From positions 1 to 56,044 of the forward strand of contig JADGOB010000009.1 of NCBI GenBank assembly GCA_017883185.1: a stretch of 56,044 nucleotides of DNA, written 5' to 3'. This DNA comes from Acidobacteriota bacterium (GTDB lineage Bacteria; Acidobacteriota; Vicinamibacteria; Vicinamibacterales; Fen-181). The translations under genes and the position numbers were made by a program. Positions 42,271 through 52,995 of the stretch are shown here, one piece after another. A model generated the notes under the pieces. The model saw only the letters and a program-made list of their open reading frames with translations. It ran no database searches and was not told where the DNA came from. The stretch's first letter is position 1; every line of letters begins with the position of its first letter.

Positions 42271-43812
42271 ATGGACACACGCGAACAGCTCATACAACTG
42301 GAGAAGGCGGCGGAATTGGGCGGCGGCGAAGCGCGCCTCCGGCGCCAGCACCAAGCGGGCAAGCTCACCGCGCGGGAGCGGATGGAGCTGCTCTTCGACG
42401 CCGGGACCTTCGAGGAGCTCGACAAGCTGGTGGTGCACCGGTGCCGCGACTTCGGGATGGAAGACCAGGTCATCCCGGGCGACGGCGTGGTCACCGGATT
42501 CGGTCACGTCGAGGGCCGCGTGGTCTATGCCTTCGCGCAGGACTTCACGGTGTTCGGCGGGTCGCTCTCCGAGACCAACGCCGCCAAAATCGTGAAGATC
42601 ATGGACCTCGCCGTGCGCCAGGGCGCGCCGGTCGTCGGGCTCAACGACTCGGGCGGCGCGCGCATCCAGGAAGGCGTGATGTCGCTGGCCGGGTACGCCG
42701 ACATCTTCCTCCGCAACACGCTGGCGTCGGGCGTCGTCCCGCAGATCTCGGCGATCATGGGCCCGTGCGCGGGTGGCGCCGTCTATTCACCCGCGATCAC
42801 CGACTTCATCGTGATGGTGGAGGGCACGAGCTACATGTTCGTGACTGGGCCTGACGTCGTGAGGACCGTCACGCACGAGGAGGTCTCCAAGGACGACCTC
42901 GGCGGAGCGATGACGCACAACGCGAAGAGCGGCGTCGCGCACTTCGCAGTCGCCGACGACCGCGAGTGCCTGCTGCTGATCCGCGAGCTCCTGGGGTTCC
43001 TCCCGGGGAACAACGTGGACGACCCGCCGCGCCGCGAGACGAGCGATCCGTTCGATCGCGAGGACGAAGCGCTCGACCACCTCGTGCCCGAATCGCCGAA
43101 CCAGCCGTACGACATCCTCGATCTGATCCACGGCGTCGTAGACGACGGGCACTTTCTCGAGGTGCAGCACTACTACGCCCGGAACCTGGTGATCGGGTTC
43201 GCGCGGCTCGGTGGCCGCTCGGTGGGGATCGTCGCCAACCAGCCGGCGCACCTGGCCGGCGTGCTCGACATCGACGCCTCGGTCAAGGGCGCCAGGTTCG
43301 TGCGCTTCTGCGACGCGTTCAACATCCCGATCGTCACCTTCGAGGACGTGCCGGGGTTCCTGCCGGGGACGCAGCAGGAGTTTGCCGGGATCATCCGCCA
43401 CGGCGCGAAGCTGCTGTTCGCGTTCGCCGAGGCGACGGTGCCGAAGGTGACAGTGATCACGCGCAAGGCGTACGGCGGGGCGTACTGCGTGATGTCGAGC
43501 AAGCACATCCGCACCGACATCAACTTCGCGTGGCCGACCGCTGAAATTGCGGTGATGGGGCCGGAGGGGGCGGTCAACATTCTCTACAAGCGCGAACTGG
43601 AACGGGCCGAGGACCCGGCGGCGCTGCGGGCGGCGAAAGTCGCGGAGTTCCGAGCCAAGCTGGCCAACCCGTTCGTCGCGGCAAGCCGCGGCTTTCTCGA
43701 CGAGGTGATCATGCCGCGGACAACGCGGCGGCGGCTGATTACCGCGCTCGCCTCGCTCGAGTCGAAGCGCGATCGGAATCCGCCGAAGAAGCACGGGAAC
43801 ATCCCGCTGTAG
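42271..43812 (+). CDS. acyl-CoA carboxylase carboxyltransferase (beta) subunit
   Basis: A 513-residue propionyl-CoA/methylmalonyl-CoA-type carboxyltransferase. The N half has the biotin side ([36 protein letters not shown]) and the C half the CoA side ([35 protein letters not shown]). It needs a biotin carboxylase and a biotin carrier, both encoded at 51475-53567, about 7.7 kb away. A TAGAAT box at 42247-42252 precedes it; its ribosome site is weak. Whether it prefers propionyl- or acetyl-CoA cannot be decided. Confidence 0.94.
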
Positions 43813-43869: not shown

Positions 43870-44205
43870 TCAGCCGAGGATTTCGTTGAGGCCGTCGGTG
43901 ATCTGGACCAAGTCCTCTTCAGAAGCGCGGGCAAGTCGTCGGCCGACACGTTCGGTGCTGAGCGTGCGGATCTGACCGATTTTGACCCACAACCGCTTGG
44001 GCAGGCCGACGGTGCGGATCTCCATCGTGAGTGGGAATCCTGCACACGGCTCTTGGCTGGTCAGCGCCACCGCAATGACGGTGCCGGATCGTTCGTTGAA
44101 CACATCGTGACTGAGCACCAGCACCGGACGCTCGCCTGCTTGTTCGTGGCCACGCACAGGGTTCAGGTCCGCCCAACGGATCTCACCTCTCAGTATTCGG
44201 GCCAT
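43870..44205 (-). CDS. MazF-type endoribonuclease toxin
   Basis: A 111-residue toxin of the MazF/PemK family, expected to cut mRNA when unbound. MARILRGEIRWADLNPVRGHEQ is the typical start, followed by ERPVLVLSHDVFNERSGTVI and LPKRLWVKIGQIRTLSTERV. The start at 44205 lies inside the antitoxin gene end (16-bp overlap). The pair sits between the carboxylase beta gene and gatE. Confidence 0.9.
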   Translation of the reverse strand: MARILRGEIRWADLNPVRGHEQAGERPVLVLSHDVFNERSGTVIAVALTSQEPCAGFPLTMEIRTVGLPKRLWVKIGQIRTLSTERVGRRLARASEEDLVQITDGLNEILG

Positions 44206-44432
44206 GTGTCGCGACTCCCGGCAAAGCCCTCTTCGGCCATCGCTTGTTCTTCGCGAGGGTTCACCTTGGCACACTCCCGGGCCAGGCGAGTCCGAGCCAG
44301 GCGTGCCACCGCGTCGGCGAGCGCGGTTTCGACGGCCTGGCTTCGGTTGGCGAACCGCCGGGCGGCCACGAGCTCATCGACGCGGCCAAGCAGTGCGGTG
44401 TCTACGGTAACGGCCACTTTCGTCTTTCTCAT
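44190..44432 (-). CDS. ribbon-helix-helix antitoxin
   Basis: An 80-residue antitoxin. The N-terminal RHH DNA-binding fold is MRKTKVAVTVDTALLGRVDE, with LVAARRFANRSQAVETALAD; the C-terminal acidic tail should bind and block MazF. Translation starts at ATG 44432 with a GAGGA site nearby. It usually represses its own operon by binding its promoter. Confidence 0.85.
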   Translation of the reverse strand: MRKTKVAVTVDTALLGRVDELVAARRFANRSQAVETALADAVARLARTRLARECAKVNPREEQAMAEEGFAGSRDTWPEY

Positions 44433-44899
44433 GGCGTCCTCACGAGTATGACGTAACATCATACCATGGGCGCGGTCCAACCCTTCGTTGCACCGGACTG
44501 CCTACGGCAGCCGGTGAAGTCAAGCGGTATGCGGCCTGGCGGTCGTGACCGTCTATGGTCGGCCGACGATCGCACGACGGACTGACCTCAGTCTTACCGT
44601 TCGATCGACTTCAAAAGGGAGAGCATCTCATGGGCAGGACTGTCGTGGTGACCGGGTGCCGAGCAGCGGCTTCGAACACACGGCCAGCGTCATCGAGATC
44701 CTCAAGGACAACGCGAGGCGGCCCGTCGGGCCGACGGTGACCTTGATTCCACTCCTCGTGAGGACGTGTTCCTTACGCATGGGTCGTTCACGAACGGCTG
44801 CCGGTCTTTCGACAAGCATGATCGTCGCGGCCGGGGTATGGCACGGGAAGAAGGGCGGGCCAGGTCCGCGGCAAACTCCGGAAGGCAGGACGTAGCCGG
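44433..44899. other. region between the toxin-antitoxin pair and a small gene, with gene debris
   Basis: About 470 bp. The toxin-antitoxin promoter must be at its left end. A degraded short-chain dehydrogenase start lies at 44631-44740 (separate entry). No other intact gene is convincing. Confidence 0.4.
44631..44740 (+). pseudogene. frameshifted short-chain dehydrogenase remnant
   Basis: A good AGGGAGAG site precedes ATG 44631; the first frame reads MGRTVVVTG, the start of a Rossmann fold, and the adjacent frame continues PSSGF (normally ASSGF in VTGASSGFG) then EHTASVIEILKDNA. A one- or two-base indel at about 44655-44660 separates the two halves. Only about 40 codons remain. This appears to be a decayed gene. 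Confidence 0.4.
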
Positions 44900-45380: not shown

Positions 45381-45476
45381 GAGTGGGCCGGACACCGCCA
45401 CAAGTCGACAGCCGCAAGCTGCGAGCCGGTGTAGACTTGAGCGTTCGGTGCAGTCCTTACCACGGAGGATCACCCG

Positions 45477-47444
45477 TTGGATATCAAGTCGCCCGAGTTC
45501 TACGCGGAAATTGGCCTCATCTCCGGTCTCGAAGTCCATCAGCAGCTGTTCACCGAGCGCAAGATGTTCTGCCACTGCCCTGCGCGCCGGTACACCAGCA
45601 CGCACGACGGCGAGGTGCTGCGGCACATGCGCCCGACGCTTTCGGAACTCGGCGAGTACGACGGCACGGCGCTGATGGAGTTCAAGACCAGGAAGAACAT
45701 CATCTACCTCCTCCACAAGGAGAACGTCTGCACGTACGAGATGGACGACACGCCCCCGTTCCTCGTGAACCAGGACGCGGTGGACGTCGCCATCGAGCAG
45801 TGCCTGATGCTCGGCTGCGACATCGTGGACGAGGTGCACATCGCGCGGAAGCAGTACCTCGACGGGTCGATCCCAACCGGCTTCCAGCGCACCGCCATCG
45901 TGGGAGTCAACGGGCGCCTGCCGTTCCGGGGCCGCGAGCTGACGATCCTGCAGGTAAGCGTCGAGGAAGATTCGTGCCGCGAGGTGTCGGATGAGGGCCA
46001 CCTGATCATCTGGCGCACCGACCGGCTCGGGATGCCGCTCATCGAGACGGTGACGGGGCCGGACCTGCGAACGCCCGATGAAGTGGCGGACGCGATCCTG
46101 TTGATCGGCCGCGTGTGCCGGAGCACCGGCCACGTGCGCGTGGGGTTGGGCGCGAGCCGCCAGGACGTCAACGTCTCGGTGCGCGGCGGCCGGCGCGTGG
46201 AGATCAAGGGCGTGCCGAAGGCGGGCTGGGCGCCCGGACTCGTGCACGGCGAGGCGATCCGCCAGGTGAACCTGTTGAAGCTGCGCGACGAACTGATCCA
46301 TCGCGGATTCACCACGGCCGACTCGATCGGCGTGGAGAGCGCGGACGTCACCTCGCTGTTCGCTTCTTCGGAAGCCGCGTTCCTGACGGTTGGGGGCTGG
46401 GAGAAGTACGCGCGCGACGAGCAGCGCCGAGCCGGCTTCGAGATCGGGAACGGCAAGTTTACCGTGCGTGCGATTCGCGTGAAGGGGCTTGGCCACACGC
46501 TCGCATGGCCGACGCAGCCCGATTGGATCTTCGCGCACGAGCTGGCCGGCCGCATCCGCGTGATTGCCGGCCTCGACCAGCGGCCGATCCTCCTCCACAG
46601 CGAGAAGTGGCCCGACTACCACCGTTCGCTACAGGAACTTCGCAAGGTGCGCGCGCGCCTCAAGTGCAATCCGGAGGACGGCATCGTCCTGGTGTGGGGC
46701 CCGGACGAAGACACGGTGACCGCCGCCGACGAGGTGCGGCTGCGGTACATCGACGCCATCAACGGCATCCCGAACGAGACCCGGCAGCCATTCGAGGACG
46801 GCAGCACCGATTTCGAGCGGATCCTGCCGGGGCCGGATCGCATGTACCCGGACACCGACAGCCCGCCCTCACGGGTGACCCGCGAGCGCGTCGAGCGGCT
46901 GCACGCGGCGCTCTCGCCGCGCCCGTGGGAACGCGAGGCGCGCTACAGCGCCGCGGGTGTTCCCACCTCTACCACGCATTTCCTGATCCGGCGGGGCGCG
47001 GCCCGGCTGGTCGATCTCGTGACCGACGTCTGCCGCGCCCCAGTCCTGCAGGCCTGCGTGCTGTTCGGTGAGCGGGTGAAAGCGCTGCGCCGCGACGGCG
47101 TGCCGGTGGACACGGTCTCCGATGATCGCTGGTGCGAACTGTTCACGCTGGCCGGACGGTGCCCGCGGCTGTGGGAAGCGTGGGACCTGGTCGTGCGCGC
47201 CCTCGCGGCCGCGCCCGACCGGAGCGTGGCGGCCATCGTGGGGGACCTCGGGCTCGGCGCCACGCCGGACGGGTGGCGCCAGGGCGTGGGAGCCGCCGTC
47301 ACCGAGGCCTCCGGCAGGCTCTACGTGCCGGGCAACGACCGGCTCTTCCGATTCTCGATGGGGCTTGCGATGTGCGAGCTTCGTGGCAAGGTTCCGGCGC
47401 TCGAGGTTGCAGACGCCGTCAAGACGGAGATCGCATCGCGATGA
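45477..47444 (+). CDS. gatE: archaeal-type Glu-tRNA(Gln) amidotransferase subunit E
   Basis: GatE (655 aa) is the tRNA-binding, kinase and transamidase subunit of GatDE, which converts Glu-tRNA(Gln) to Gln-tRNA(Gln). IGLISGLEVHQQLFTERKMF with CHCP at the start, then FRGRELTILQVSVEEDSCRE, WRTDRLGMPLIETVTGPDL, and ASRQDVNVSVRGGRRVEIKG are the GatB/GatE core. Residues about 290-430 form the AspRS-like insert that separates GatE from bacterial GatB (FAHELAGRIRVIAGLDQRPI); the C-terminal helical/YqeY-like tail follows. TTG 45477 is the start, with GGAGGA 8 bp upstream. Its TGA overlaps the gatD ATG. Base composition is similar to neighbours. Confidence 0.93.
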   Translation: MDIKSPEFYAEIGLISGLEVHQQLFTERKMFCHCPARRYTSTHDGEVLRHMRPTLSELGEYDGTALMEFKTRKNIIYLLHKENVCTYEMDDTPPFLVNQDAVDVAIEQCLMLGCDIVDEVHIARKQYLDGSIPTGFQRTAIVGVNGRLPFRGRELTILQVSVEEDSCREVSDEGHLIIWRTDRLGMPLIETVTGPDLRTPDEVADAILLIGRVCRSTGHVRVGLGASRQDVNVSVRGGRRVEIKGVPKAGWAPGLVHGEAIRQVNLLKLRDELIHRGFTTADSIGVESADVTSLFASSEAAFLTVGGWEKYARDEQRRAGFEIGNGKFTVRAIRVKGLGHTLAWPTQPDWIFAHELAGRIRVIAGLDQRPILLHSEKWPDYHRSLQELRKVRARLKCNPEDGIVLVWGPDEDTVTAADEVRLRYIDAINGIPNETRQPFEDGSTDFERILPGPDRMYPDTDSPPSRVTRERVERLHAALSPRPWEREARYSAAGVPTSTTHFLIRRGAARLVDLVTDVCRAPVLQACVLFGERVKALRRDGVPVDTVSDDRWCELFTLAGRCPRLWEAWDLVVRALAAAPDRSVAAIVGDLGLGATPDGWRQGVGAAVTEASGRLYVPGNDRLFRFSMGLAMCELRGKVPALEVADAVKTEIASR

Positions 47445-48835
47445 CCACGCCAGCAGACGCGCTCAAGGGATACAAGGGCCATGCGCGCGCCGCGCTCGAG
47501 CGCTGGGGCGTGCGCGTGTGGAGCGACGTGCAGGTGGAGAACGACGCCGGCAGCCACTTCGAGGGCGTCATCCTCCCGCGCAGTGAAACCCAGGACGACC
47601 TCCACGTTGTCATCAAGCTGAAGAACGGCTACAACGTCGGCCTGCACGTGGACCGCGTCCGGTCGGTGAAGGAGGTCGGCTACAAGGAAGCCATCTACAA
47701 GATCCCGGAGAAGGAGTTCCCGCGTCGGCCCAACCTGCCGGCCGTCACGTTGCTCGGCACGGGCGGGACGATTGCCTCGCGCCTCGACTACCGCACGGGC
47801 GCCGTCATCCCGGCCTTTACGCCGGGCGAACTCTACGGCGCGGTTCCCGAACTCGCCGATATCTGCAACCTGACGACGAAGAAACTGTTCGGCGTGTTCT
47901 CGGAGAACATGGCGAAGGAGCAATACATCGAGCTGGCGAAGGCCATCGGCGAGGAGATCGAGAACGGCGCCGACGGCATCGTGATCGGCCATGGCACCGA
48001 CACGATGGGGCATACGGCCGCGATCCTGTCGTTCATGGTGCAGGACACGCCGGTGCCGATCGTGCTGGTCGGATCGCAGCGATCAAGCGACCGCCCGTCG
48101 AGCGACGCCGCGCTCAACCTGATTCACTCGGTCCGGGCCGCCGCCTACTGCGACATCGCCGAGGTGCAGATCTGCATGTTCGGCCCGACATCGGACCGCT
48201 ACGGCCTGCTGCACCGCGGCACGCGCTGCCGCAAGATGCACAGTTCCTACCGCAGCACGTTCCGCACGGTGGGCGACATCCCGTTGGGCACGGTCGGCCG
48301 CGACAGCTTCACCTACCTCCACTCGGACTACCGGAAGCGCGACAAGACGCGGAAGGTCAAGATCGACGCGGTGTACAACGATCGGACGACCATCCTCTAC
48401 TATTACCCGGGGATGTCGCCGGACCTCGTGGACGCGCTGGTGGAGAAAGGCTACCGCGGCATCGTCATCGCGGGCACCGGCCTGGGCCACGTCAACAAGC
48501 CGCTCTACCCGGCGCTCGAGAAGGCCATCCAGAAAGGCGTGCACGTCGTGATGACGGTGCAGACGCTCTGGGGCTACGCGCAGATGTACGTGTACGACAC
48601 GGGCCGCGACCTGCTCGAGATCGGCGTCGTGCCGCTCGACAACATGCTGCCTGAAACCGCGCTGATGAAGCTGTCGTGGGTGCTCGCCCACACCGACGAT
48701 CACGGCGAGGTGCTGCGGATGATGCGGGCGGTGGTGTCACACGAGATCACCGACCGCGAGCCGCACAACGGGTACCTGATCATGCAGGGCGGACTCCCGG
48801 AGATCGAGGAGTTCATCCTGTCGCACTGGAAGTGA
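47441..48835 (+). CDS. gatD: archaeal-type Glu-tRNA(Gln) amidotransferase subunit D
   Basis: GatD (464 aa) is the asparaginase-like glutaminase that supplies ammonia to GatE. An N-terminal beta domain (residues about 1-95) contains VILPRSETQDDLHVVIKLKN. The asparaginase core has LLGTGGTIAS (nucleophile-region Thr110), GHGTDTMGHT (Thr186, Asp187), VGSQRSSDRPSSDAALNLI and HRGTRCRKMHSS (Lys265). These match the positions of Thr101, Thr177, Asp178 and Lys254 described for the Methanothermobacter enzyme, offset by 9-11 residues. It overlaps gatE by four bases, so E and D should be made together. The N-terminal domain rules out a simple L-asparaginase. Confidence 0.93.
   Translation: MTTPADALKGYKGHARAALERWGVRVWSDVQVENDAGSHFEGVILPRSETQDDLHVVIKLKNGYNVGLHVDRVRSVKEVGYKEAIYKIPEKEFPRRPNLPAVTLLGTGGTIASRLDYRTGAVIPAFTPGELYGAVPELADICNLTTKKLFGVFSENMAKEQYIELAKAIGEEIENGADGIVIGHGTDTMGHTAAILSFMVQDTPVPIVLVGSQRSSDRPSSDAALNLIHSVRAAAYCDIAEVQICMFGPTSDRYGLLHRGTRCRKMHSSYRSTFRTVGDIPLGTVGRDSFTYLHSDYRKRDKTRKVKIDAVYNDRTTILYYYPGMSPDLVDALVEKGYRGIVIAGTGLGHVNKPLYPALEKAIQKGVHVVMTVQTLWGYAQMYVYDTGRDLLEIGVVPLDNMLPETALMKLSWVLAHTDDHGEVLRMMRAVVSHEITDREPHNGYLIMQGGLPEIEEFILSHWK

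Positions 48836-51474: not shown

Positions 51475-52995
<1,521 letters not shown>

Follow-up and report, generated by a model that had tools for sequence, protein, structure and literature searches.

Why should a bacterium keep an indirect enzyme for making glutaminyl-tRNA where a direct one exists? GatDE is an enzyme that completes glutamine-loaded tRNA, GlnRS is the direct enzyme, and textbooks, to our knowledge, place GatDE in archaea only. The question is raised by an intact two-gene operon, gatE plus gatD, lying in the window (the whole stretch of 56,044 nucleotides analysed here, from an Acidobacteriota genome), whose features are collected in Table 1. As far as its sequence allows us to judge, the pair probably represents a functional GatDE of a bacterial branch, that is, a Glu-tRNA(Gln) amidotransferase that would act as a second route or as a repair system beside GlnRS. 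Reviews also describe GatDE as restricted to archaea (PMC9499178, PMC8007984), and we found no description of a bacterial GatDE in the literature searched, the coverage of which was partial. NCBI curated models already recognise bacterial GatDE proteins.

Table 1. Features of the gatE-gatD operon, with positions in the window
Feature	Position	Strand	Evidence or remark
Likely ribosome-binding site of gatE, GGAGGA	45464..45469	+	Read directly; TTG start 7 nt downstream
gatE, 655 aa, bacterial-type GatE, kinase/transamidase subunit	45477..47444	+	TTG start; curated models, clade, fold match
GatE catalytic core, part 1, residues 10-285	45504..46331	+	On average 65% identical to 128 further non-canonical GatEs
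Clade signature K-Q-Y-L-D-G-S-I-P, residues 125-133	45849..45875	+	Alignments
Putative AspRS-like insert, diverged, residues 286-430	46332..46766	+	No Pfam GAD match; mean 34% identity
GatE core, part 2, residues 431-495, ILPGPDRMYPDTDSPP	46767..46961	+	Alignments
Helical C-terminal tail in YqeY-like position, residues 496-655	46962..47441	+	Fast-evolving; mean 20% identity
ATGA, shared by the gatE stop and the gatD start	47441..47444	+	Short overlaps in most homologous loci
gatD, 464 aa, asparaginase-type subunit	47441..48835	+	Curated models; PDB 1zq1_A 401.7 bits
GatD N-terminal domain, PF18195	47519..47668	+	52.3 bits, cut-off 25.7; plain asparaginases lack it
GatD asparaginase domain, containing Thr110, Thr186, Asp187, Lys265	47726..48760	+	Pfam, alignments

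The original prediction that a bacterial chromosome holds a complete GatDE was borne out by the curated NCBI models, whose cut-offs both subunits exceed: GatE scores 458.6 bits with NF003107 (barely above the cut-off of 456) and 386.8 with TIGR00134 (cut-off 319.6), and GatD scores 497.9 with NF003217 (cut-off 310) and 496.9 with TIGR02153 (cut-off 324). Pfam finds GatB_N in GatE, and GatD_N, Asparaginase and Asparaginase_C in GatD, and by sequence the closest solved structures of both proteins are 1zq1 and 2d6f. The catalytic domain of GatD resembles type I asparaginase (TIGR00519, 364.8 bits), from which the protein differs by its GatD_N domain, as had been predicted, and by having a gatE partner directly upstream. 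The four-base overlap between the two genes is likewise as first described, and the order gatE-gatD with a short overlap is maintained over ~20 acidobacterial families, the two genes being usually retained together. In the flanks examined of six bacterial gatE loci (L134, L139, L147, L151, L189 and L203) no gatD was found; it may sit elsewhere in those genomes. Because dN/dS against three relatives is ~0.2-0.3 for gatE and ~0.13-0.17 for gatD, with dS near saturation, the comparison shows that both genes are kept by purifying selection.

Gene context says less. The neighbouring genes tested in the window belong to ordinary bacterial families, and it is for these that the earlier statement that all surrounding genes are bacterial stands; among 129 distinct gatE loci there is no conserved neighbour gene that hints at function. 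On the minus strand of the window, at 43870-44480, a MazF/PemK-like toxin gene and a ribbon-helix-helix gene overlapping it upstream form a type II toxin-antitoxin pair. Genes for a carboxyltransferase and a biotin carboxylase (42271-43812 and 51475-52995) lie on the same strand as each other, with gatED and an S9 peptidase gene between them.

How well are the working parts of the enzyme preserved? Thr110, Thr186, Asp187 and Lys265 of GatD align with residues 101, 177, 178 and 254 of the M. thermautotrophicus protein, in agreement with the predicted match to the Methanothermobacter enzyme, and all four are invariant in 102/102 bacterial GatDs. Across an alignment of 129 bacterial-type GatEs the active-site residues that were inspected vary little or not at all, E19, H21, K125, E163, E164, D165, R183 and D230 being unchanged except in gapped rows. 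The core also carries residues specific to the clade (M51, Y87, D91, T92, Q126, Y127, I132, P133, C167 and T181), two of which, Y127 and P133, are shared with GatB, canonical archaeal GatE having V and T at these positions. As to the AspRS-like insert that had been attributed to GatE, it appears to be present, judged by length and predicted structure, but its sequence has diverged: the Pfam search of the window GatE found neither the AspRS-type GAD domain nor the YqeY tail, and the AspRS fold matches are weak and rank below 1zq1 and 2d6f. GAD was found in one canonical archaeal GatE and in 0/6 bacterial relatives tested; the C-terminal tail of the window GatE is predicted to be helical, and in one relative (L014) YqeY passes the Pfam cut-off. 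The AlphaFold model of the window GatE has a mean pLDDT of 88.9, and its best Foldseek matches are 1zq1_C of P. abyssi and 2d6f of M. thermautotrophicus (E 2.3e-43 for 1zq1_C; TM-score by target 0.80).

Two GatE trees, both from short searches and with archaeal sequences drawn almost entirely from Thermoplasmatota, P. abyssi and Natrinema being the exceptions, place the bacterial GatEs and 10 Thermoplasmatota sequences in one clade (SH-aLRT 100% in the first tree, 99% with the GatB outgroup) and canonical archaeal GatE in a separate one (100% and 97%, respectively). All GatEs stand apart from GatB with 100% support, which removes the concern that the window protein might fall within bacterial GatB; it is also placed outside the canonical archaeal clade (97% for that clade, 99% for its own). 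Thermoplasmatota are basal within the bacterial-type clade, which fits an archaeal origin under this nearly Thermoplasmatota-only archaeal sampling.

The alternative that GatDE has a wider bacterial distribution than usually stated proved right. GatE exceeds the cut-off in 57/396 sampled Acidobacteriota genomes, and a scan of GTDB genomes yields at least 569 relatives, of which the top 80 come from ~15-20 bacterial phyla, including Acidobacteriota, Planctomycetota, Ignavibacteriota/Bacteroidota, Myxococcota, Aminicenantes, Zixibacteria, Fermentibacteria, Krumholzibacteriota, Cloacimonadota, Neomarinimicrobiota, Caldisericia and Gemmatimonadota, together with one Thermoplasmatota archaeon. An archaeal/bacterial assembly chimera, which the original prediction had named as a possible undoing, cannot be the general explanation, since copies also lie on the complete bacterial chromosomes CP054675 and CP070718 and on a single-contig genome (G097).

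Where did the copy in the window come from? The nearest relatives of its GatE are other Acidobacteriota, with one Myxococcota sequence nested among them, and GatE is found in 0/45 sampled genomes of relatives (41 of the same order and 4 of the same class). The tetranucleotide correlation of the contig with 20 other contigs of its bin is 0.89-0.92, within the bin's own range of 0.83-0.94 and above the 0.15-0.88 of 20 stretches from other genomes, and its GC content agrees with the bin too. These compositional values make it hardly credible that the 56-kb contig was binned by mistake from another acidobacterium and that the window's genome lacks GatDE, although the empty same-order and same-class genomes, the membership of the closest GatEs in other families and a bin contamination of 3.87% would suit such an error; bacterial occurrence of GatDE would stand even then. 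Since the contig belongs to its genome by composition while the sampled relatives are devoid of GatE, the copy was likely gained laterally, from within the phylum or close to it, which is the simplest account. The lateral transfer first proposed is therefore probable for this copy, but not as a recent arrival from archaea.

Does GatDE stand in for the usual enzymes? In the window's genome it does not. This genome retains GlnRS (contig C96, 758.8 bits, cut-off 425.8), GatB (C33), a GatA-like protein as top amidase match (C223) and two GluRS, with an HVGG motif (C368) and an HVGN motif (C79); because all of these are kept, GatDE is an addition, so that of the two proposals, that it replaced or that it supplements GatCAB/GlnRS, only the second survives. 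HVGN is the motif reported for GluRS2 (PMC3927822), and the enzyme bearing it is a possible source of Glu-tRNA(Gln). As a GatDE-specific partner, GluRS2 was rejected: an HVGN GluRS is also encoded by same-order genomes without GatDE, whereas a single GluRS without this motif is what most of the GatCAB-less carriers examined possess.

The same coexistence is found in other carriers. Full GlnRS is encoded by 52/57 acidobacterial carriers, the remaining five being partial or mostly less complete bins, and GlnRS is above cut-off in 38 of the 50 genomes of named loci, a set that shares a few genomes with the first (e.g. G072 and G419). GatB is above cut-off in 22 of the 57, a fragment in one and missing from 34, and it is above cut-off in 20 of the 50. 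The complete genome CP054675 (G418) encodes GatE together with GlnRS but lacks GatB. Both GlnRS and GatB are lacking beside GatE in four bacterial drafts, from Neomarinimicrobiota (G410), Zixibacteria (G438), Aegiribacteria (G430) and a Bdellovibrio sp. (G431). AsnRS is present in nearly all 57 acidobacterial carriers (absent from G021, G034 and G280, split in G211), which disfavours GatDE as a maker of Asn-tRNA. Short frames with only the C-terminal part of GlnRS occur in genomes without the full enzyme (G438:C34:22864-23297 and G411:C1:3598641-3598940) and are possibly remnants or stand-alone domains.

A model of how the window GatDE may work can be outlined, in which we infer chemistry, tRNA substrate and physiological role, as well as the lateral gain, the chemistry from the family and the catalytic residues. 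GatD would release ammonia from Gln or Asn, and GatE would use ATP to activate the glutamate carried by misacylated Glu-tRNA(Gln) and would amidate this residue to give Gln-tRNA(Gln). As GlnRS is present beside it, GatDE would not be the only source of Gln-tRNA, and in the window's genome and most carriers it would provide a second route driven by amide donors, or repair of Glu-tRNA(Gln). The near-constancy of GlnRS points either to such a role or to a shifted substrate in bacteria.

It might be objected that an enzyme whose product is already supplied is a redundant passenger, laterally acquired, active, of small consequence and often lost again. The patchy occurrence in the phylum (57/396), the lone operon without constant context and the coexistence with GlnRS and sometimes GatCAB are what such a passenger would show. 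Yet the low dN/dS, the active sites invariant over many phyla and the retention of gatE and gatD mostly as a pair speak against it, and we regard it as quite improbable.

The tRNA substrate deserves separate attention. Archaeal GatDE is reported to use A1:U72 of tRNA-Gln (PMC9499178). The tRNA-Gln(UUG) of the window's genome (contig C79) has U1:A72 and G73, as do almost all bacterial carriers sampled and likewise bacteria without GatE, and no shift towards archaeal determinants appears among the tRNA-Gln sampled from carriers; bacterial GatDE has thus not pulled this tRNA towards the archaeal form. In Thermoplasmatota, tRNA-Gln has A1:U72 and mostly A73, whichever GatE type is present. A 4.1-kb contig of one Thermoplasmatota genome (G447:C69, L332) carries a bacterial-type tRNA-Gln (U1:A72, G73, CCA) and is likely stray.

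Bacterial-type GatE is the sole GatE found in 8 genomes of Thermoplasmatota, the same search giving no GatB match; in G439, the one of the 8 searched directly for GlnRS, neither GlnRS nor GatB is above cut-off. The tRNA-Gln recovered in 5/8 is of archaeal type. Because these genomes appear to have only this type, bacterial-type GatDE is probably what makes their Gln-tRNA. Two further genomes, G465 (L276, L290) and G474 (L283, L287), have both canonical and bacterial-type GatE, the canonical copies being long-branched.

These archaea bear on the rival that we take most seriously, though we consider it unlikely, namely that bacterial-type GatDE has been repurposed to amidate a small molecule or a different misacylated tRNA, GlnRS and AsnRS already making Gln- and Asn-tRNA. 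The near-constant company of both synthetases, the two Thermoplasmatota with both GatE types, the clade-specific core residues and the fast-changing insert and tail of GatE would all suit a new substrate. On the other side, the catalytic core of GatE is invariant, the 8 Thermoplasmatota would need GatDE for Gln-tRNA, and the 129 loci show no pathway neighbours. A functional Glu-tRNA(Gln) amidotransferase beside GlnRS is favoured by the curated cut-offs, the fold match, the invariant active sites, the kept gene order and purifying selection, and further by the carriers without GlnRS and GatB, the Thermoplasmatota with only bacterial-type GatE and the HVGN GluRS. Counting against it are the GlnRS of nearly all carriers, which should already supply the product, the host tRNA-Gln with U1:A72/G73 in place of A1:U72, the diverged insert and tail, the lack of a conserved neighbour, and the single GluRS without GluRS2 motif in most GatCAB-less carriers examined.

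With canonical archaeal GatDE (1zq1, 2d6f) the window enzyme shares the two subunits, an asparaginase-type GatD with GatD_N, the GatE core, the catalytic residues and the predicted fold; it differs in its separate GatE clade, without recognisable GAD or YqeY sequence and with GatB-like Y127/P133, and it occurs in bacteria that have GlnRS and a U1:A72/G73 tRNA-Gln. With bacterial GatCAB, which coexists with it in the window's genome, it has in common the catalytic core of GatE and GatB, whereas it uses GatD instead of GatA/GatC, carries a putative AspRS-like insert and has a GatE that branches outside GatB. Co-evolution of GatDE with archaeal tRNA-Gln has been invoked to explain why archaea never acquired GlnRS (PMC9499178). 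The joint presence of GatDE and GlnRS in dozens of bacteria, including the complete chromosome CP054675, contrasts with the archaea-only view, and bacterial GatDE bears on the history of GatDE and GatCAB in models of LUCA. Its role in bacteria is testable. More tentatively, and with somewhat less than even confidence, we suggest a tRNA-dependent amidotransferase, widespread among bacteria, that is dispensable for Gln/Asn decoding and either dedicated to Glu-tRNA(Gln) repair beside GlnRS or directed at a new aminoacyl-tRNA substrate. In several carriers (G072:C17, G272:C7, G216:C4 and others), GlnRS and GluRS are encoded on one strand at a distance of ~1-2 kb from each other.
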